From Arthrobacter sp. 31Y (GTDB lineage Bacteria; Actinomycetota; Actinomycetes; Actinomycetales; Micrococcaceae), in contig NZ_JAFW01000001.1 of assembly GCF_000526335.1 (NCBI RefSeq), forward strand, positions 3,410,001 to 3,474,000: DNA of 64,000 nucleotides, given 5' to 3'. Under the pieces are notes generated by a model. The model saw nothing but the letters and a program-made list of their open reading frames with translations, searched no databases and had not been told where the DNA came from. The position numbers were made by a program, and so were the translations under genes. Shown here piece after piece: positions 1,740 to 11,064 of the stretch. Every line of letters begins with the position of its first letter. The stretch's first letter is position 1.

Positions 1740-2384
1740 CTATTGGGCGCTTTCCTTGCGCTTCTTGACCCTCCGGATGATGAGCCATACGACGAACGCG
1801 GCGAGCCCTGCATACACGGCGTAATTGAGGAATCGAGAGTACTGGTCAACCAAGTGATATTGCTTGCCGAGAAGTGCTCCCGCACCAATGAGCAGGGCAT
1901 TCCATACGCCCGTCCCCGCGACGGTAAAGATGCTGAACGTCACCAGGTTCATGCGTTCGGCACCTGCCGGGAGGGAGATGAGACTGCGCACGCCGGGAAG
2001 CAGCCGACCAAAGAAGATGGCGGACTTGCCGTGGCGTTCGAACCATTCGGCGGCTTTCTCGAAATCTTCCCGATCAACCAGGGGCAGTTTTGAAAGTAGC
2101 TTAATGGACCTCTCCAGCCCCACCTTGTAGCCCAGCCAGTACAGGAGCATCGCTCCGGCGTAGGCGCCCAGTGTGCTGGTGACAAACACCAGGATCAGGT
2201 TAATGCCGCCCTGCTGGGTGAGGAATCCGGCCAGTGGGAGGATCACCTCACTGGGAATGGGCGGAAACACGGTCTCCAGAAGCGTTAGCAAGCCCACGCC
2301 CCATTCACCAAGGGCCTCGATGACCTGCGCAGCGATTCCCACAATCCCGGTTAACTCATCGGCTGCAGCGGTCGCCTTGAGCAA
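1740..2384 (-). CDS. DedA family (VTT/SNARE-associated) membrane protein
   Basis: 214 residues with the DedA/VTT signature: an N-terminal re-entrant/TM region with ETVFPPIPSEVILPLAGFL, a central soluble loop, and the conserved F.GRLLPGVRSLISLPAGAERM segment with its essential arginines, then two C-terminal TM helices and a short basic tail. DedA proteins are inner-membrane undecaprenyl-phosphate or phospholipid flippase-like transporters needed for envelope homeostasis. Length is normal for the family. The gene reads away from the LacI operon, whose terminator-like hairpin lies between them (2462-2494), and converges on the Clp-N gene. Confidence 0.9.
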   Translation of the reverse strand: MLKATAAADELTGIVGIAAQVIEALGEWGVGLLTLLETVFPPIPSEVILPLAGFLTQQGGINLILVFVTSTLGAYAGAMLLYWLGYKVGLERSIKLLSKLPLVDREDFEKAAEWFERHGKSAIFFGRLLPGVRSLISLPAGAERMNLVTFSIFTVAGTGVWNALLIGAGALLGKQYHLVDQYSRFLNYAVYAGLAAFVVWLIIRRVKKRKESAQ

Positions 2385-2461
2385 GCTGATCAGGTCGATC
2401 TCCGTTCATGAAGGACGCTCCCGTAAACGACTGAAGCGCAGCAAAGCTGACGTATCCATGG

Positions 2462-2494
2462 GGAAGCCCAGTGATGGGGGACCACTGGGCTTCC
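2462..2494 (-). terminator. Terminator-like hairpin at the end of the levan operon
   Basis: A perfect 12-bp inverted repeat (arms 2462-2473 and 2483-2494, GGAAGCCCAGTG type) with a 9-nt loop lies 56 bp beyond the lacI stop codon. There is no clear T run, which is usual for many actinobacterial terminators. It separates the levan operon from dedA. Confidence 0.65.
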
Positions 2495-2549
2495 ACCTCA
2501 ACGCTATGCCCATCCACGTCCGCGAGCAACAAGCAATGTCAACAGGTTT

Positions 2550-3629
2550 TTAGGCTGGTGAGTGCACTGCCACAGAGGCGCGCTCGACTGCAGGGCAGGC
2601 AATCTTCACCGCAGAATCGAGAGGCGCCGCATCCAGGCCCAGCAGCATTCGAACACCCGCAGCGCCAAGCTCGTAGTGGGGTAGTGACACCGTTGAAAGT
2701 GGAGGTCGCAGGTGGGCCGCGATGACTTCCTGGTTGTCGAAACCCACCACGGCTATGTCATCTGGAATGGAGAGGCCGTTCTCCCTCAAGCCATCGTAAA
2801 GGCCCATCGCCATCCGGTCGTTGTAGCAATAGACGGCACTGACCTTGAGCTTGAGCAGGTCATCGGTGGCGCCGTAGCCACCTTCCTGATCCGGGTAGGC
2901 TTCGAGCACCAAATCGGGGTCAAATGGTACTCCGGCGCCCTCGAGTGCGGACTTGTAGCCCTGGAGACGACCATCCTTGGCAGGTGCGGGGGTGGTGGTG
3001 TTGATGAAGGCGATTCGCCGGTGGCCTTCGCGAAGCAGGATTTCCGTGGCTGACTGTCCGCCTTGTGCCTCATCAGGTACTACGGCGCGGGCGGCACCGG
3101 CCTCGGGGGAGAAACAGTTGACCAGGACAAAGTCTGCCTCGCGAAGGGTCTCCGGGACATCAGTGGGGCGGTGGAACCACGTTGAGTACAGGATGCCGCG
3201 TACTTTGTATTCCAGCATCATGGCGATTGCGTCTTGTTCGAGGTCTTTGTTGCCTTCGGTGTTGGCGATCAGCAAAGCGTAACCGTGTTTCCATGCTTCA
3301 TCCTGAGCCCCATGGATGATCTGGCCGGCGAAGGGCGTGGTGGCAACGCCGTCGGCTACCAAACCGATGAATTTCGAGGTTCCGCTGACCAACGTTTTGG
3401 CCATGGCATTCGGGCGGTAGCCCAGCTTGGATATGGCCTCCGTGACCCGTTGACGCGTCTCATCAGCGATGCGCGCGTTCTTCTTTTTGTTGATGACCAA
3501 CGAGACTGTGGCAGTGGAAACACCAGCCAATTCAGCGACTTCGCGGAGGGTCACCGGATGAGCGCGGTCCGCTCTGGCATGAATGTCTGGGCCGGCCCCG
3601 TTGCCTGAATTTTTCTCCTGCGAAATCAT
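2550..3629 (-). CDS. LacI family transcriptional regulator of the levan/fructan operon
   Basis: About 359 residues from the ATG at 3629, which has a strong GGAGG 4 bp upstream. A longer form starts at 3671 and overlaps the permease stop by 4 bp (ATGA), so either start is possible. The N-terminus holds the LacI DNA-binding domain (TLREVAELAGVSTATVSLVI plus hinge helix YRPNAMAKTLVSG). The remainder is a periplasmic-binding-protein-like sensor that ends with FDNQEVIAAHLRPPLSTV. It is the last gene of an operon with two permeases, a lipoprotein and a GH32 enzyme. The three identical-type operators in the 8.33-8.43 kb promoter region have the central CG and AAxCGxTT symmetry expected of LacI sites, so it most likely represses both directions until a fructo-oligosaccharide or dianhydride binds (inference). 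Confidence 0.9.
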   Translation of the reverse strand: MISQEKNSGNGAGPDIHARADRAHPVTLREVAELAGVSTATVSLVINKKKNARIADETRQRVTEAISKLGYRPNAMAKTLVSGTSKFIGLVADGVATTPFAGQIIHGAQDEAWKHGYALLIANTEGNKDLEQDAIAMMLEYKVRGILYSTWFHRPTDVPETLREADFVLVNCFSPEAGAARAVVPDEAQGGQSATEILLREGHRRIAFINTTTPAPAKDGRLQGYKSALEGAGVPFDPDLVLEAYPDQEGGYGATDDLLKLKVSAVYCYNDRMAMGLYDGLRENGLSIPDDIAVVGFDNQEVIAAHLRPPLSTVSLPHYELGAAGVRMLLGLDAAPLDSAVKIACPAVERASVAVHSPA

Positions 3630-3667
3630 CTGTCCTCCGTCTGGAGTATATCCGTCTGCCGTGGCCG

Positions 3668-4570
3668 TCATCCCTTATTCGCCCCGCTTTCCAAGCCTTG
3701 AATCATGGCTTTGTTCAGGACGAGGAACACCAGGAGCAAGGGAGTGATGGTCACGCACACCGCAGCAAACGTGGCGGTCCAATCCACCTTTCCCATGGCA
3801 CCGATGTAATTTTGCAAGCCCAGTGGAATGGTCTTCAGGTCCTCTGACAGGACAAAGGTGTTGGCGAAGATGAAGTCGTTCCAAATGAAGATGCTGTTCA
3901 CTAGGACAACTGTGACCACGGTGTTGAGTGACAGCGGCAGGGTGATCAGTCCAAAAATCCTGTAGGGTCCGGCGCCATCCAAGGACGCGGCCTCGTACGT
4001 TTCACGCGGAATGTATTCGAAGAAGGATGAGAACAGATAGATGGACATGGGCAGGGCGAAACCGGCCAGGGGGATGATCATGGACTGATAGGTGTCCAGC
4101 AGGTTCACGGCGGAGTAGTCGATGAACAGGGGGACCAATGCGATCTGAACCGGAACAATGATCCCTATCAGGAACAAGGCACGGACGAAGCGGCTCAGCC
4201 GGAATCCCAGGACCTGAATGGCGTAGGCGGCCATCATGCCGAACAACACAATGAGGATGTTGGCGCCCATGGTGACAATGAAACTGTTCAGGATGTTCCG
4301 GCCCAAATCGCCAGTTTCGAAGGCCCTCGCGTAGTTTTCCCACGTCAACGAACTGGGAAGTGCGAATGGATCACCGGTTGCAAAGTCGTGTTCTGTCCGC
4401 AGGCTGGTAAGGAACAGCCAGGCGAGCGGGTAGACCTGAACGATCACGATGAGCATGATCAGCACCCGCGAGAATGTCCGGTACAGGCTGGGCTTGCGCC
4501 GGCGTCGTTGTTGAACCGGCGAGGATGGAGCTGACGCGCGCGGGGTAGACGGGGCTGTCTGGGTGATCAT
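3668..4570 (-). CDS. ABC sugar transporter permease (MalG/CUT1 type)
   Basis: 300 residues from the ATG at 4570, which overlaps the stop of the preceding permease by 4 bp (ATGA); a longer frame to 4852 has no support. Six TM segments are seen, with the N-terminal SRVLIMLIVIVQVYPLAWLF helix after a basic Pro/Arg/Ser-rich tail. The EAA loop reads ETYEAASLDGAGPYRIFGLI, the contact site for the shared ATPase. No ATPase is encoded in the operon, which is normal for actinobacterial CUT1 systems using a common MsiK-type ATPase elsewhere. Works with the permease and lipoprotein upstream to import the levan breakdown product. Confidence 0.9.
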   Translation of the reverse strand: MITQTAPSTPRASAPSSPVQQRRRRKPSLYRTFSRVLIMLIVIVQVYPLAWLFLTSLRTEHDFATGDPFALPSSLTWENYARAFETGDLGRNILNSFIVTMGANILIVLFGMMAAYAIQVLGFRLSRFVRALFLIGIIVPVQIALVPLFIDYSAVNLLDTYQSMIIPLAGFALPMSIYLFSSFFEYIPRETYEAASLDGAGPYRIFGLITLPLSLNTVVTVVLVNSIFIWNDFIFANTFVLSEDLKTIPLGLQNYIGAMGKVDWTATFAAVCVTITPLLLVFLVLNKAMIQGLESGANKG

Positions 4571-5448
4571 GAATCTGCTTTCCGCTTGAGCATGAACAAG
4601 ATGAGGCCGACGGCGACGAGGCACTCGATCACGATGAACACGGAGATGGTACTTGCGTAGCCGAAGTCCGTACTGGTGAAGGCTGTCTTGTACATGTAGG
4701 TGGTGAGCAGTTCGGAGGACTGCCCGGGGCCACCGTTGGTCATGAGGTACGGGATATCGAAACCGCGCAGGCCGTAGGTGGTGGCCATGATGGTGGTGGT
4801 GATCCACACGGGACGTATATAGGGGAACCGGATCTTGGTGAAGAGTGTCCACTTCGAGGCGCCGTCCAGCACGGCGGCTTCTTCCAGCTCCTTGGGCACG
4901 GCGATCAGTGCAGCGTAGATGATGAGCATGTAAAGCCCCGTGAACCGCCAGCCTTCAGGGGCGGACACGGCTGCCAGCACGGTGTTCACGTCCGAGAGCC
5001 ACGCCCGCTCAAGGGACCCCAAACCCACCCAATGCAGCAGCTGGTTCAACAGGCCAACCGGATCAATGGAGTAGATGCGGACAAAGAGGAACGCGATTGC
5101 GACGGTAGAGATCACCGCTGGCAGCAGATACAGGGTTTTGATGAGTTCCCGGCCTCGGCGCAAGGATGTGAGCAAACTGGCTACAAGCAGTGCTCCGCCA
5201 AGTTGCAGCACCAGGCAGATGGCCAGGTAGAGGAGTGCGTTGAAGAAGGACCTCCAGAAAATATCGTCCGCTGTGAGCATCCGGACGTAGTTTTCGAGCC
5301 CAACGAACTCCATCTCGCTGATGCCGTTCCAAGAGAAGAAGCTCAGGAACAGCGATTGAAGAATCGGGAACAGTACTGCTGCGCAGTAGAGCAGCAGGGG
5401 TGGAAGCAGGAAGACCAGGACTGAGGTCCTTGACCTGTTGGGAAGCAT
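4567..5448 (-). CDS. ABC sugar transporter permease (MalF/CUT1 type)
   Basis: 293 residues, six TM segments (first: VLVFLLPPLLLYCAAVLFPI), with the EAA-type loop ELEEAAVLDGASKWTLFTKI about two thirds along. It is the MalF-like half of the importer and is translationally coupled to the MalG-like half downstream (4-bp overlap). It lies 46 bp after the lipoprotein gene, with a strong GC hairpin in the gap that may lower its level relative to the binding protein. Substrate is inferred from the flanking fructan enzymes, not from the permease sequence itself. Confidence 0.9.
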   Translation of the reverse strand: MLPNRSRTSVLVFLLPPLLLYCAAVLFPILQSLFLSFFSWNGISEMEFVGLENYVRMLTADDIFWRSFFNALLYLAICLVLQLGGALLVASLLTSLRRGRELIKTLYLLPAVISTVAIAFLFVRIYSIDPVGLLNQLLHWVGLGSLERAWLSDVNTVLAAVSAPEGWRFTGLYMLIIYAALIAVPKELEEAAVLDGASKWTLFTKIRFPYIRPVWITTTIMATTYGLRGFDIPYLMTNGGPGQSSELLTTYMYKTAFTSTDFGYASTISVFIVIECLVAVGLILFMLKRKADS

Positions 5449-5461
5449 GGTGGGCCTTTCG

Positions 5462-5486
5462 GGCGGGGGCCTTGGGAGCCCCCGCC
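5462..5486 (-). promoter_or_regulatory. GC-rich intercistronic hairpin between binding protein and permease genes
   Basis: Arms 5462-5470 and 5478-5486 (GGCGGGGGC and its complement) form a perfect 9-bp stem with a 7-nt loop. It lies directly after the lipoprotein stop codon. Such hairpins often act as partial terminators or 3'-end protectors that make the binding protein more abundant than the permeases (established for other ABC operons; inferred here). Confidence 0.6.
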
Positions 5487-5494
5487 GCTTCGGT

Positions 5495-6832
5495 TTACTT
5501 GAAGAACTTGGGGGCGTTCTGCTTGATGGCGTCGTCCATGGTCTTGGTGAACTGTTCGGGCGTGATGTTGCCCTGGACTAGGAGAACGAGTTCCTGCTGC
5601 AGCCTGCCGTTGGTGGTGGGGTCAAGCTGGGTATCCCATGGCATGGCTTGCTTGCCCCCAAGGGTGTTGGCCGTTTCGAGCGCTTTCTTGTACAGCGGAG
5701 TCGCGTTCCCGGGGATGGCAGTTTGCACGTTGGTGGTGGGGGAGAGGGCGCCGGTGGCGGCATACTCGGCCGGGTACTTCTCCAAGGCGAACTTCAGGAA
5801 GTCACTCACCAGCGGATCGTAGGTTTTGGAGTTCACTGCCATGCCAATGCCGGAGGGGGAGACGAACTCGTTGGCGGAGGTCACCGAACCTTCGGTGGTG
5901 GGCAACGTGAAGAAATCGATGTCGTTCCGGACCTCGGAGTTGAGCTTGTCGGTGGCGAGGCTCGGAAGTTCCCACGTGCCGATGTTGTACATGGCGGCTT
6001 GCCCCGAGGTGAACTGGTTCTGCGCATCCGAGTAACCCTGCGCGGAGAAGCCCTCCTGGAAGCATTGGGCCTTGCCGAGGTCGGCCATCCAGGTCACGGT
6101 CTTCTGGCCGGCGTCGTCCGCAAACGATGCCTCGCCTTTCCTCAGCTTCTGCACGAAGTCCGGTCCCGCTTCACGGAACGGCTGGTACGCAACGTAGCGT
6201 TCCAGCGGCCACTGGTCCTGCCCGTCGATGGCGATCGGGGTGATCCCCGCATTCCGCAGGGCAGTGCACATGGCGGGAACGTCATCGAGGGACTTCGGCA
6301 CGGAAACACCGGCCTTTTCGAACAATGCTTTGTTGTACCAGATGAATTCGAGCTCGAACTGGAACGGAATCATGTACAGGGAGCCGTCGTCGAAGCGCTG
6401 GTAGTCCAGGGCGCCGGGGCGGTAGTCGTCATAGACGTCCAGTGATTTCAGGAGCTTGTCCGCCTCCACCATTTTTCCTTGCTTGGCAAGTTCCTGAGCG
6501 AAGGGGGTGGCATCGGTGTCGAACAATTCCGGCAGCTTGTTGGCTGCGGCCAGGGTTTCGAGTTTTTGAATGTAGGAGGGCCGGTCCGGGGTGGTGATGA
6601 GGTTCAGTGCAAAGCCTGGGTGGTCCTTGGCGTAGTCGTCCGCGAGCTTTTTCATGATGTTGATGACAGCTCCGTCGGCGGGCCTGGAGAGCAGCCATGA
6701 TATTTCGCGGGGTTTGATCTCCCCGGTGGGGCTGACGTTTGACGGGTCAGTGGCAGCACCTCCGCCGCCACAAGCTGTCAAAGCCAAGGCGGCGGCGGCT
6801 GCGACGGCGGCAGCACGGAGTAGTTTCTTCAT
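5495..6832 (-). CDS. Extracellular solute-binding lipoprotein (sugar ABC transporter, family 1)
   Basis: 445 residues. A signal peptide with a lipobox LTAC places the modified cysteine at residue 21, so the mature protein is membrane-anchored outside the cell. The rest fits family 1 solute-binding proteins: KLADDYAKDHPGFALNLIT near the N-terminus, LPELFDTDATPFAQELAKQG, and the GQAAMYNIGTWELP signature in the middle. It is the second gene of the operon, 45 bp after the GH32 gene. As the specificity subunit it should bind what the exported levan enzyme releases, probably a difructose dianhydride or short fructan; this is inferred from context. Confidence 0.9.
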   Translation of the reverse strand: MKKLLRAAAVAAAAALALTACGGGGAATDPSNVSPTGEIKPREISWLLSRPADGAVINIMKKLADDYAKDHPGFALNLITTPDRPSYIQKLETLAAANKLPELFDTDATPFAQELAKQGKMVEADKLLKSLDVYDDYRPGALDYQRFDDGSLYMIPFQFELEFIWYNKALFEKAGVSVPKSLDDVPAMCTALRNAGITPIAIDGQDQWPLERYVAYQPFREAGPDFVQKLRKGEASFADDAGQKTVTWMADLGKAQCFQEGFSAQGYSDAQNQFTSGQAAMYNIGTWELPSLATDKLNSEVRNDIDFFTLPTTEGSVTSANEFVSPSGIGMAVNSKTYDPLVSDFLKFALEKYPAEYAATGALSPTTNVQTAIPGNATPLYKKALETANTLGGKQAMPWDTQLDPTTNGRLQQELVLLVQGNITPEQFTKTMDDAIKQNAPKFFK

Positions 6833-6877: not shown

Positions 6878-8314
6878 TCAGTTGTCGGTTCGCTGGCGTA
6901 TCTCGAGTTCGGTGAGGGTCACGGTTCCTTCTCCGGCGAAGACGCCGATCCGGCCGGTATCGAGGTCGTAAATCCTGGCGCTGAGCGCCACTTGACGGTC
7001 GACGACGGCGACGCAAGTGTCGCCGTCGACGATGACCTCAAGGGTGTGCTCGCCGGGGGCGAGGTTGCAGGGTCGCTCAAGTTCGACGTCGAACGGGACG
7101 TCCCCGGAAACGTGCCACTGAGCATCGCCGGTGATGGTGCGGGGCCAGCGGTCCAAGACGAGCCGGTCACGCTTGGGTTCCAGACGCAGGACGTAGGAAT
7201 GGTCGCCGTCGTGGCTCGAGCGGAGCAGCAAACCGCACTCGGTTGTATTGGGAGTGATATCCAGTACCGCCTTGGCGTAAAACTGCTGCGGCAGTTCCTC
7301 GTCGGACACCATGGCCGTGTACCCGTCCGGCACCTCGAGCCGCGCCGGCAACGCGCCGCTCAGGGAAACCGGGACGTCTTCCCAGAAGCTCTCCACGAGT
7401 TCATCTGCGAACGAAAATCCCAAGGTCCCGTCAGGGTTTTGGAGGGCTTCCAGCACGGACATGGTTCCTGCCCACTGCCATGGCCCGTGATCGGTGTTGC
7501 CTTCTTTGCTGGCAATCCATCCGAAGAAGAAGCGTCGCCCGTCGCGTTCTGCCGTCTTTGAGGCGTAGAAGGCGCGGCCGTCGATGCTGTCCAAAGCGGG
7601 CACCATCCACGGGCCGTCGGGGCTCTTGGCCATGCGGTAGCGGGTGGTGAACGTTTCCGAGAACTCGGAGTAGACCATGTACCACCAGTCACCCCAGGCG
7701 AAGACGTCCGGGCATTCGTGCGTGATGTAGCGGCGCGGGTCCCAGAACGGTTCGGTGTGTTGCCACGTCATCAGGTCCGCGGATAGGCACTGCGCGATGA
7801 CGCCGCGGCGGCGTTCGGGCCCGCTCGAGTGCCTTGCCGCGAGAAGCATCCTCCACAGGTTCTTGTTGTCATCCCAAAACACGAAGGGATCGCGCCAATC
7901 ACCGGATTCGTAGCCGGCTGGGGCGCCGAAGGTGTGCTCGGGGTGCTTGTGCCAGGTCCGCATACCGTCGGTACTCGTGGCATGCATGACCAACTGCAGG
8001 GGCGCCCCATCGGGACCGAGGTTGCGGGGGTTCTGGCCGGTGTAGAACAGGTGATGGACGCCGGATTTGTCCGTGACGATGCTGCCTGTGTAGGCGTTGA
8101 AGTCCAGGTCTGTTTCGCTGCCGTGGTGCAACGATACGCCGTGGTCCTCAAACTGGGTGAGGTCTTTGGTGGTGACCAGGTTCCATGAGGTGCCCGGTTT
8201 TGGTTCTGAGCGGTCTTCGTGAAGGTAGAAGAGCCAGAACTCCCCGTCCTTTTCGAAGGGGATGAGGTCTCCAACCCAGCCGTCGGCTGGTTGGAAGAAG
8301 ACTGAGCGTTTCAT
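6878..8314 (-). CDS. Intracellular glycoside hydrolase family 32 enzyme (candidate DFA IV / fructo-oligosaccharide hydrolase)
   Basis: 478 residues with no signal peptide, first gene of the operon. The three GH32 motifs are present but divergent: the nucleophile motif is DGWVGDLIPF (Asp16) instead of WMNDPNG, followed by the WRDPFVF motif and the acid/base motif HECPDVF. The five-bladed propeller is followed by a C-terminal beta-sandwich region (roughly residues 310-478). The divergence from ordinary invertases/levanases, the cytoplasmic location, and co-transcription with an importer opposite a levan fructotransferase suggest that it hydrolyses imported difructose anhydride IV or levanbiose to fructose. 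That specificity is inference; the hydrolase fold and motifs are seen. Its ATG at 8314 follows a well-formed promoter (8356-8384). Confidence 0.85.
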   Translation of the reverse strand: MKRSVFFQPADGWVGDLIPFEKDGEFWLFYLHEDRSEPKPGTSWNLVTTKDLTQFEDHGVSLHHGSETDLDFNAYTGSIVTDKSGVHHLFYTGQNPRNLGPDGAPLQLVMHATSTDGMRTWHKHPEHTFGAPAGYESGDWRDPFVFWDDNKNLWRMLLAARHSSGPERRRGVIAQCLSADLMTWQHTEPFWDPRRYITHECPDVFAWGDWWYMVYSEFSETFTTRYRMAKSPDGPWMVPALDSIDGRAFYASKTAERDGRRFFFGWIASKEGNTDHGPWQWAGTMSVLEALQNPDGTLGFSFADELVESFWEDVPVSLSGALPARLEVPDGYTAMVSDEELPQQFYAKAVLDITPNTTECGLLLRSSHDGDHSYVLRLEPKRDRLVLDRWPRTITGDAQWHVSGDVPFDVELERPCNLAPGEHTLEVIVDGDTCVAVVDRQVALSARIYDLDTGRIGVFAGEGTVTLTELEIRQRTDN

Positions 8315-8332
8315 CTGCGCTGATGTCCATTC

Positions 8333-8425
8333 TGCTAAAGCGTTTGATCACTCGTAAGTTAGCGCGGATTTCTAGAGTGTTCAAGCGTTTTAGCAAAACT
8401 CTTTTTCCCCTGCTAAAACGCTTGA
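8333..8425. promoter_or_regulatory. Three copies of a LacI-type operator in the divergent levan promoter region
   Basis: Copies are at 8333-8347 (TGCTAAAGCGTTTGA), 8381-8395 (the exact complement of the third) and 8411-8425 (TGCTAAAACGCTTGA). All have the central CG with AAxCGxTT symmetry of LacI sites. The middle copy overlaps the -35 box of the minus-strand operon, the first lies just after its expected start of transcription, and the third overlaps the -35 box of the plus-strand levan enzyme gene. Confidence 0.85.
8356..8384 (-). promoter_or_regulatory. Promoter of the GH32-ABC-lacI operon
   Basis: On the minus strand TTGAAC (8379-8384) and TAACTT (8356-8361) are spaced by 17 bp, a good match to a vegetative sigma promoter. 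The -35 box lies inside an operator copy. Confidence 0.6.
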
Positions 8426-8451
8426 CCAGCCTCACTCGCTGCCGCTAATGT
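8422..8451 (+). promoter_or_regulatory. Promoter of the levan fructotransferase gene
   Basis: TTGACC (8422-8427) and TAATGT (8446-8451) are spaced by 18 bp. The -35 box overlaps the third operator copy, so the same LacI protein can repress both directions. Confidence 0.55.
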
Positions 8452-8530
8452 CCTGCATAGCTTCGGCTTCCCCCACCCGCTGGATGACGTTTGGCGCACT
8501 GTTGCCCCAAACGCCGAGAGGAACGAATCA

Positions 8531-10090
8531 ATGACGAATCACATTTCTCGACGCACGGCCCTGCAAGGCGCCGGAGTTGGCGCCATGGCGCTGTTCCTGA
8601 GCAATGCTGTACCTGCAGCTGCGCACGCCCAAGCATCGCTAAGGGCCATTTACCACATGACTCCGCCCTCGGGCTGGCTGTGTGATCCGCAGCGTCCGGT
8701 CCATACCAATGGCGCCTACCAGCTCTACTATCTCCATTCCGGGCAGAACAATGGTCCGGGCGGCTGGGACCACGCAACCACAAGTGACGGCGTCTCCTTC
8801 ACCCACAACGGCGTCGCTATCCCCCTGCAGCCCGACTTCCCGGTGTGGTCAGGATCGGCTGTGGTGGACTCGGCGAACACGGCTGGTTTCGGTGCCGGAG
8901 CGGTAATTGCGCTGGCAACTCAGCCGACCGGCGGCGTTCGAAAGTTCCAGGAGCAATACCTCTATTGGTCTACCGACGGCGGCTACACGTTCTCCGCACT
9001 TCCTGATCCGGTGATCGTTAATACCGACGGGCGAAGTGCAACCACCCAATCTGAGATTGACAACGCAGAGTGGTTTCGCGACCCGAAGATCCACTGGGAC
9101 GTTGTACGCAATGAGTGGGTGTGTGTGATCGGACGGGCACGCTATGCGGCCTTTTACACCTCAACGAACCTGCGGGATTGGAGTTGGAAATCGAACTTCG
9201 ACTACCCGAACCATGCCTTGGGCGGAATCGAGTGCCCGGATCTGTTCGAAATGACGGCCGGAGACGGCACCCGGCATTGGGTGTTCGGTGCGAGCATGGA
9301 CGCGTACAGCATTGATCTGCCAATGACCTTTGCCTATTGGACGGGCGCTTGGAACGGCACAGCCTTCATTGCTGATGACCTCACGCCGCAGTGGCTCGAC
9401 TGGGGATGGGACTGGTATGCCGCCGTGACGTGGCCGTCTGTTGAAGCACCCGAAACCAAACGCCTGGCCATCGCCTGGATGAACAACTGGAAGTATGCTG
9501 CCCGCGACGTACCCACGGATGCCTCTGATGGCTACAACGGGCAGAACTCCATAACTCGTGAACTGCGGTTGGAGCGCCAGTCGGGAGGCTGGTACAGCTT
9601 GATCAGCTCCCCGGTTGAGGCGCTGCAGGGTTACGTCACTGCCACCACCACCCTGCCTGACCAGACGGTTAACGGCAGCGTCGTGCTGCCATGGAGCGGC
9701 CGCGCCTACGAGCTTGAGCTTGATATTTCATGGAACCTGGCCACGAACGTCGGGGTATCTGTTGGCCGTTCCCCGGACGGCTTCCGACATACCAACATTG
9801 GCAAGTACGGTGACGAGCTGTATGTGGACCGCGCGCCGTCGGACCAAGGAGGGTACTCGCTGGTGCCCTACACGCGGGCCGCTGCGCCTATAGATGCCAA
9901 CGCGCAGTCAGTCCATCTGCGCATCTTCGTGGACAAGCAGAGCGTGGAGGTGTTTGTGAACTCCGGGCACACTGTGATTTCTCAGCAGGTTCACTTCGCC
10001 GACGGCGACACCGGGGTCTCTCTCTATGCGGACGGGGGCGCCGCGAACTTCACCGGAATCACCATCCGCGAGTTTGGCGGTCCTCTGTAG
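8531..10090 (+). CDS. lftA: Tat-exported levan fructotransferase (GH32; forms DFA IV from levan)
   Basis: 519 residues. The N-terminus SRRTALQGAGVGAMALFL is a twin-arginine signal, cleaved probably after AHA (residue 33). The catalytic triad of GH32 is visible: nucleophile Asp52 in GWLCDPQRP, Asp184 in WFRDPKIHW and acid/base Glu234 in GGIECPDLF. The WLCDPQRP form of the first motif, the length and the overall sequence agree with the levan fructotransferases of Arthrobacter ureafaciens and relatives as I remember them; these split levan by intramolecular transfer and release difructose anhydride IV (EC 4.2.2.16). A plain levanase is the alternative. A GAGAGG ribosome site precedes the ATG. 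The gene diverges from the importer operon and shares its operators. Confidence 0.82.
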   Translation: MTNHISRRTALQGAGVGAMALFLSNAVPAAAHAQASLRAIYHMTPPSGWLCDPQRPVHTNGAYQLYYLHSGQNNGPGGWDHATTSDGVSFTHNGVAIPLQPDFPVWSGSAVVDSANTAGFGAGAVIALATQPTGGVRKFQEQYLYWSTDGGYTFSALPDPVIVNTDGRSATTQSEIDNAEWFRDPKIHWDVVRNEWVCVIGRARYAAFYTSTNLRDWSWKSNFDYPNHALGGIECPDLFEMTAGDGTRHWVFGASMDAYSIDLPMTFAYWTGAWNGTAFIADDLTPQWLDWGWDWYAAVTWPSVEAPETKRLAIAWMNNWKYAARDVPTDASDGYNGQNSITRELRLERQSGGWYSLISSPVEALQGYVTATTTLPDQTVNGSVVLPWSGRAYELELDISWNLATNVGVSVGRSPDGFRHTNIGKYGDELYVDRAPSDQGGYSLVPYTRAAAPIDANAQSVHLRIFVDKQSVEVFVNSGHTVISQQVHFADGDTGVSLYADGGAANFTGITIREFGGPL

Positions 10091-10442: not shown

Positions 10443-11064
10443 ATGTACCGGAACAGCCGCGTGTCAGCCCAGTTTTCCATGTCACTTGACGGATACATCG
10501 CTCGGGATGATGACGGAATCGGCCCGCTCTTCGACTGGTATGAGGCCGGATCAGTTGAAACCTGGATGCCAGGTCACCCTGTGCCGTTTCATCTCAGCGA
10601 AGCCGATGCCGCCTACTGGACGTCACTCCCACGGGAGGGAGCGTTCATCTGCGGCAGGCGGATCTTCGATGTGACAAAGGGGTGGGGCGGTCATCCGCCT
10701 AACGAGTCACCAACGGTTGTTCTGACGCACCGCGCACCCCCGTCGGATTGGCCACCAGTCCGGCGGGATGCTCAGCCTGTCCCGTTCGAATTCGTAGGGG
10801 GATCTGGATTCGGCCTTGGAGCGTGCCGCCCACCTCGCGGGAGGCAAGGAGATCGGTGTAGCCGGCGCGGACGTGGTGCAGCAGTGCTTGCGCCTGGGGG
10901 TGGTGGATGAACTCCGGGTTGATTTGGTACCTGTATTGTTCGGACGCGGTATTCGCTGGTTCGCGGACCTTGAGACGGACATCATGCTCGACGATCCCGT
11001 GATCGTTCCCGGAACCCGCGTTACTCACCTCAGCTATCAGGTGCGCCGCCGGGACCCGCGCTAA
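10443..11064 (+). pseudogene. RibD C-terminal/dihydrofolate-reductase-like protein, broken by a 1-nt insertion
   Basis: Two overlapping frames together give one complete family member of about 206 residues. The first part (from ATG 10443) has SMSLDGYIARDDDGIGPLFDW and GRRIFDVTKGWGG. It then runs into nonsense after FEFV. The second frame continues with DLDSALERAAHLAGGKEIGV, then VVDELRVDLVPVLFGRG, the usual C-terminal half. Removing one G from the five-G run at 10797-10801 restores one frame exactly (FVGDLDSALE). The family are NADPH-binding reductases related to RibD and are usually poorly characterised. It is either a recent pseudogene or a base-calling error in the G run. The gene stands alone between two unrelated units. 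Confidence 0.8.

Follow-up and report, generated by a model that had tools for sequence, protein, structure and literature searches.

What becomes of a cyclic sugar that a bacterium makes outside its own cells? Difructose anhydride IV (DFA IV), which is produced enzymatically by levan fructotransferase and has been studied as a food ingredient, raises this question at a locus of the soil bacterium Arthrobacter sp. 31Y (NCBI RefSeq assembly GCF_000526335.1, contig NZ_JAFW01000001.1, positions 3,410,001 to 3,474,000 of the forward strand; this whole stretch of 64,000 nucleotides is called the window). The locus has two arms, namely a plus-strand gene for an exported glycoside hydrolase of family GH32 and a divergently oriented operon of five minus-strand genes, which encode a second, cytoplasmic GH32 (hereafter the inner GH32), a lipoprotein, two permeases and a LacI-family regulator. 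That the two arms serve one pathway is nearly certain in our judgement, and the levan pathway that they would compose, with conversion of the polymer outside, import of the product and opening of the ring inside, is as a whole the likely answer.

The two arms of the locus

The following genes form the locus, the operon being here also termed the cassette.

8531-10090, plus strand: levan fructotransferase (GH32) by homology; 519-residue open reading frame (ORF), PF00251 and PF08244, exported, Tat-type start.
6878-8314, minus strand: inner GH32, candidate DFA IV hydrolase that would open the ring to give levanbiose; 478 residues, cytoplasmic.
5495-6832, minus strand: sugar-binding lipoprotein of a CUT1-type ATP-binding cassette (ABC) importer; SBP_bac_1, sugar-binding PDB relatives, lipobox LTAC recognised by eye.
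4567-5448, minus strand: ABC permease, MalF/UgpA-like; BPD_transp_1, family matches weak.
About 3668-4573, minus strand: ABC permease, MalG/UgpE-like; BPD_transp_1, family matches weak; start inferred from tblastn extents in relatives, the longest ORF reaching 4852.
2550-3671, minus strand: LacI-family regulator, last gene of the operon; PF00356 and PF13377.

A sequence-only reading had pointed to the two GH32 genes and to an ABC importer opposite the exported enzyme. Both genes are present with the lengths it gave, and the importer is recognised by the domains of the lipoprotein and the two permeases, which lie outside the interval 6878-10090 covered by that reading. No ATPase gene was seen among the operon genes; the single OB_MalK-type ATPase of the genome lies beyond the window, at C1:3377146. 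The binding lipoprotein and the two permeases fit a CUT1-type importer, for which a MalK-type ATPase is thus available in the genome; a shared ATPase of the MalK/MsmX type, with its gene elsewhere, probably drives it.

The exported enzyme

Residues 39-517 of the exported protein match levan fructotransferase of A. ureafaciens (4fff) with 953 bits, the best match among solved structures. The protein begins with a twin-arginine start (SRRTALQ, motif found by eye), carries GWLCDPQRP, and keeps WLCD, RDP and ECP, which supply the GH32 triad D52, D184 and E234 (precursor numbering). WLCDPQRP is present in all relatives at or above 61.9% with a fragment that spans the region (that of L078 does not), and LevB1-like enzymes read W[KML]NDPQRP at the same place; we infer that WLCDPQRP may be diagnostic for levan fructotransferase (EC 4.2.2.16). 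Assignment of the exported GH32 to this activity, DFA IV-forming by homology, is strongly supported, as the earlier reading of an Arthrobacter enzyme of 519 residues with a Tat signal had anticipated. LftA of A. ureafaciens (4FFF-4FFI) is a close homologue, motif for motif, and no difference in kind was seen, the activity of the present copy being assigned by homology only. A yield of 73-75% DFA IV is given for such a transferase in PMC6245366.

Longer relatives of about 830 residues (WLSDPQRP, 53-56%; L134:6545-9040, L143:4757-7246, L144:4840-7329 and L040:15845-18337) have a C-terminal extension of some 300 residues and operator sites upstream; the extension had no Pfam match in L134, the sole one tested. 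The tree of transferase relatives has long branches and serves for description only.

Co-occurrence of the transferase and the inner GH32

Forty-three genome loci with the inner GH32 were compared. The transferase gene lies divergently beside 21 of them and on the same strand beside two, remnants are seen at two, a 55% transferase relative is nearby at one, and none is nearby at 17. In genome scans that scored about the top three first-look candidates per genome, and could thus miss a very diverged copy, the inner GH32 (>590 bits) was found in 40 of 395 genomes of the family and the transferase (>900 bits) in 31, all within those 40. Among 396 genomes of the order, scanned in the same way, each of the seven with the transferase (~62% or more) has the GH32 in the same cassette, and across 178 genomes of the class the transferase (E 1e-130) appears in the own genome only and the GH32 (E 1e-60) in four. 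Linkage also outside the order is suggested by Streptomyces sp. NPDC051940 and Streptacidiphilus sp. EB103A, since in each of them the transferase-like and GH32-like proteins stand on equally long contigs. Inspection by eye of 20 loci without an adjacent intact transferase disclosed no conserved gene replacing it.

Operators shared by the two arms

Three exact copies of a LacI-type operator lie between the arms.

8333-8347, plus strand: operator 1, exact TGCTAAARCGYTTGA, 18 bp ahead of the start codon of the inner GH32.
8381-8395, minus strand: operator 2, exact copy, 48 bp from operator 1.
8411-8425, plus strand: operator 3, exact copy, on the transferase side.

At up to two mismatches, 0.23 matches would be expected in the window. 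Exact copies are unique to this intergenic region in the genome, and allowing one mismatch adds a single site, TGCTGAAGCGCTTGA, inside the coding region of a gene that we take to be paaA. The GH32-side pair, 45-51 bp apart, is kept at 43 of 43 loci (at most two mismatches), while the third operator is found at all 21 loci where the transferase is divergent versus 6 of 22 others; Fisher tests on these counts ignore phylogeny. Locus L001 has an exact third site though its transferase gene is lost, which looks like a recent loss.

The operator also accompanies the transferase in other arrangements. Where the gene is turned round (L022, L027), it has an operator pair of its own; in G236 and in Leifsonia L040, two sites precede the ORF of a 55% relative near the GH32 by 23-72 bp; in G012, G014 and G015, that relative is on a separate contig with an operator pair 113-161 bp upstream; and in G018 one site precedes a frame-broken copy. 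These last four genomes are mutually similar and may represent one event.

By binding the shared operators, LacI would repress both arms until a sugar of the pathway appears. The stretch between the arms yielded no sigma-70 consensus.

Considering (i) the co-occurrence, (ii) the linkage in several arrangements and (iii) the shared operator with its genome-unique exact copies, it is strongly supported that the importer and the inner GH32 are dedicated partners of the transferase. This part of the earlier proposal of an importer and a GH32 for DFA IV stands; DFA IV as their substrate is the conditional part, levanbiose or short levan oligosaccharides being less probable alternatives.

The inner GH32 as a candidate DFA IV hydrolase

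The inner GH32 matches PF00251 and PF08244 above the cut-off, in keeping with a five-bladed propeller and a beta-sandwich, and retains the catalytic residues D16, D142 (RDP) and E200 (ECP). Its first motif is DGWVGDLIPF and the propeller starts directly; by eye the signal sequence is absent, in line with the cytoplasmic enzyme opposite the transferase described earlier. The enzyme had also been called unusual. WVGD is indeed present, but it is not unique, because the best solved relative, the endo-levanase BT1760 of Bacteroides thetaiotaomicron, has FVGD. Enzymes of the BT1760 type are closest to the inner GH32 in fold and pocket residues; the model aligns with BT1760 over 446-451 residues, with 26% identity across the structural alignment.

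BT1760 cuts polymeric levan, is described as bound to the cell surface, and does not cut levanbiose. Unlike it, the inner GH32 has no signal sequence and is encoded beside an importer, and for these reasons it was not filed as an endo-levanase.

The Asn and Gln of exo-enzymes hold O6. By eye, a change from Gln to Leu is common to the inner GH32, the transferase, BT1760 and LevB1, and in a set of 129 distinct ORF sequences, covering the inner GH32 and relatives of it and including some cut copies of one gene, the position is L in 114, Q in 10 and unread in five. Participation of this Asn and Gln in substrate binding by exo-enzymes is reported in PMC7545266. In DFA IV both fructoses are joined to each other through C2 and O6 by two beta-2,6 bonds, so that, by our argument, no terminal fructose with a free O6 is offered to an exo-type pocket. 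An opener must accommodate at -1 a fructose with a substituted O6, like endo-levanases and the transferase.

From the endo-levanase-like structure, and from the ordinary GH32 often encoded beside the gene, we consider it probable that the inner GH32 opens DFA IV. The pathway would then proceed in four steps. The exported transferase would turn levan into DFA IV, a reaction established for the close homologue; this cyclic disaccharide, which has no free chain end, would enter by way of the lipoprotein and the two permeases; the WVGD-type GH32 would bind one fructose of DFA IV at -1 despite its substituted O6, and D16 would attack C2 and release levanbiose, in a hydrolytic reversal of the last step of the transferase; finally, levanbiose would be split into fructose for phosphorylation by an ordinary exo-type GH32 of the cytosol, whose gene adjoins the cassette in many relatives and lies elsewhere in this genome. 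The product of opening would be levanbiose, which BT1760 does not cut, and a second, ordinary enzyme would then be needed.

Seven genomes from a single other family (f4, 1.7-2.2 Mb) hold a distant clade (30-35%) of WVGD/WFGD GH32 proteins (L203-L206, L208, L210 and L213; L232:7047-8435), which in L232 adjoins LacI and CUT1-type importer genes.

Second GH32 enzymes and alternative substrates

Outside the genus of the window, an ordinary GH32 adjoins 12 of the 24 cassettes examined (L131-L133, L136 with two, L214-L219, L222 and, about 0.9 kb away, L237). The 24, several of them closely related to each other, are L130-L136, L138, L214-L227, L233 and L237; the count omits L137 (same genome as L037), L139 (genus of the window, no second GH32), and L231 and L232 (35-37% relatives). 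All 13 second enzymes read W.NDP and F.Q or Y.Q where the inner GH32 has WVGD and FYL; in the one of L237, the RDP and EC motifs were not located by a simple search. Closest to the second enzyme of L131 is an exo-inulinase (8i12, 364 bits). In L216 a PfkB sugar kinase comes after the second enzyme, and L214, L217, L218 and L219 likewise show a start resembling that of a kinase.

Such neighbours bear on a variant that overlaps the explanation preferred here, in which the inner GH32 itself would carry DFA IV through levanbiose to fructose. In agreement with it, no second GH32 was seen in the window's cassette or in those of close relatives; the nearest solved relative, BT1760, nevertheless stops at levanbiose, and a second GH32 is retained next to the cassette in several lineages, which leaves the variant rather unlikely.

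The assignment of DFA IV opening to the inner GH32 has to be weighed against several observations that count against it. An intact transferase orthologue is missing from nine of the 40 GH32-bearing genomes of the family (G316 having a broken copy and G236 the 55% relative), and from 11 of the 18 genomes of the order with an inner GH32 of at least 50% identity; we read these transferase-free cassettes as those of DFA IV scavengers, and another substrate would fit them as well. Public names of transferase orthologues include 'levanbiose-producing levanase'. The operator motif, at up to two mismatches, was not found in the operon-type cassettes L130, L133, L136 and L138, and it occurs once only in L131 and L132, with two mismatches, at the GH32 start; it is thus a feature of the closer relatives. 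Further operator sites were not in excess over a backwards control in a set of 28 genomes where no intact transferase orthologue is adjacent (at most 24 distinct, given the same-site pairs G009/G143, G017/G316, G011/G385 and G019/G379): one-mismatch sites number 25, excluding those at the GH32, at transferase relatives and old third sites, versus 42 hits of the control. A second GH32 was found neither beside the other 12 of the 24 cassettes nor beside those of the genus of the window. Three genomes of the order with transferase relatives of 54-57% (G568, G581 and G650) have no inner GH32 at E 1e-60, and a GH32N-only protein of 306-330 residues clusters with these relatives. Finally, the Asn-to-Gly change before the nucleophile was considered as proof of a site open to O6 and proved not decisive, LevB1-type endolevanases keeping the Asn.

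Some of these points would suit an inner GH32 that hydrolyses levanbiose or short levan oligosaccharides inside the cell, the importer taking up those sugars and DFA IV being a by-product or handled otherwise. The closest fold is that of an endo-levanase, many GH32-bearing genomes are without the transferase, and some orthologues of the exported enzyme bear the levanase name just mentioned. We regard this as improbable, however: such a transferase makes DFA IV at the yield quoted above (PMC6245366), BT1760 itself leaves levanbiose uncut, an ordinary GH32 already adjoins the inner one in half of the 24 cassettes, and this genome has a separate fructan system with a LevB1-like enzyme. A cassette for another fructoside (inulobiose, DFA III or sucrose-type oligosaccharides) with the transferase as a merely co-regulated neighbour would agree with the frequency of transferase-free cassettes and with L232, where a 35% relative stands beside LacI and ABC genes in a stretch without a transferase-like gene, but it is very improbable, given that the operator is found at both arms also where a separate contig carries the transferase relative, that a GH91 cassette of its own serves DFA III, lying beside this one in L131, and that the own genome's DFA-IIIase match is weak (24%, E 5.8e-4).

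Returning to DFA IV opening by the inner GH32, we lean towards this protein as the founder of a DFA IV hydrolase family, with its transferase-free relatives as scavengers and the GH32N-only protein as a possible alternative opener. The latter may act as such or as a levanbiose/inulobiose hydrolase, and occurs at the following places.

L228:14990-15901, L229:9739-10656 and L230:3978-4892: GH32N-only protein (306-330 residues) clustered with transferase relatives without the inner GH32.
L040:8937-9866 and L223:10992-11906: relatives of this protein near the inner GH32.

Neighbouring gene clusters

In L131 (G342), a DFA III cassette at 2122-6736, comprising LacI, a GH32N-only protein of 328 residues related to those just listed, a PfkB kinase and a GH91 protein (819 bits to the DFA-IIIase 5zks), is directly upstream of the DFA IV cassette, so that two cyclic-sugar pathways adjoin. 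The own genome has a second fructan cluster (L140, C1:4780000-4796000) with LacI, Dpp-type ABC genes, a cytosolic GH32, a PfkB kinase and an exported-looking GH32 with 503 bits to the endolevanase LevB1 (9h8i). Just downstream of the transferase, a 155-residue ORF (10443-11063 of the window), apparently shortened by a frameshift, presumably resembles a RibD/DHFR-type reductase; its counterpart in L139 has 206 residues and a similar start.

Comparison with known difructose anhydride pathways

No gene for a DFA IV hydrolase was found in the open-access literature searched (open-licence PMC); the earlier reading likewise knew of no well-described gene set for the uptake and hydrolysis of this sugar. 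Ring-opening enzymes are already assigned for DFA III and DFA I, and the cassette offers concrete gene, importer and regulator candidates for DFA IV. If the proposal holds, it explains why a cyclic sugar is made from levan, as a private form of a public polymer, it predicts scavengers that take up DFA IV without producing it, and it has an intracellular GH32 running the last step of its exported cousin backwards with water.

PMC8605356 suggests three-stage pathways for two cyclic sugars, DFA III in Arthrobacter and DFA I in Streptomyces davawensis. The Arthrobacter DFA III pathway, according to PMC8605356 and PMC11538131, consists of a secreted inulin fructotransferase, import, a GH91 DFA-IIIase and a GH32 beta-fructofuranosidase, the last two carrying out intracellular breakdown in two steps, GH91 then GH32 (PMC11538131). 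The proposed pathway is like it in turning a polymer into a cyclic difructose outside, importing this, opening it inside and leaving the split to an ordinary GH32, and unlike it in starting from levan, not inulin, and in employing GH32 proteins, not GH91, as transferase and as candidate opener. The DFA I operon of Bifidobacterium dentium encodes the GH172 enzyme alpha-FFase1, a GH32, an ABC importer and LacI, and thus shares with the present system its gene types, namely LacI, ABC importer, ring-opening enzyme (a candidate here) and GH32. That B. dentium strain has no GH91 inulin fructotransferase gene, and DFA I has an alpha-fructofuranosyl bond, opened by the retaining alpha-fructofuranosidase alpha-FFase1, whereas DFA IV has two beta-2,6 bonds. 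What is new here is the proposed DFA IV counterpart of these three-stage pathways, with a strong candidate for the DFA IV hydrolase.
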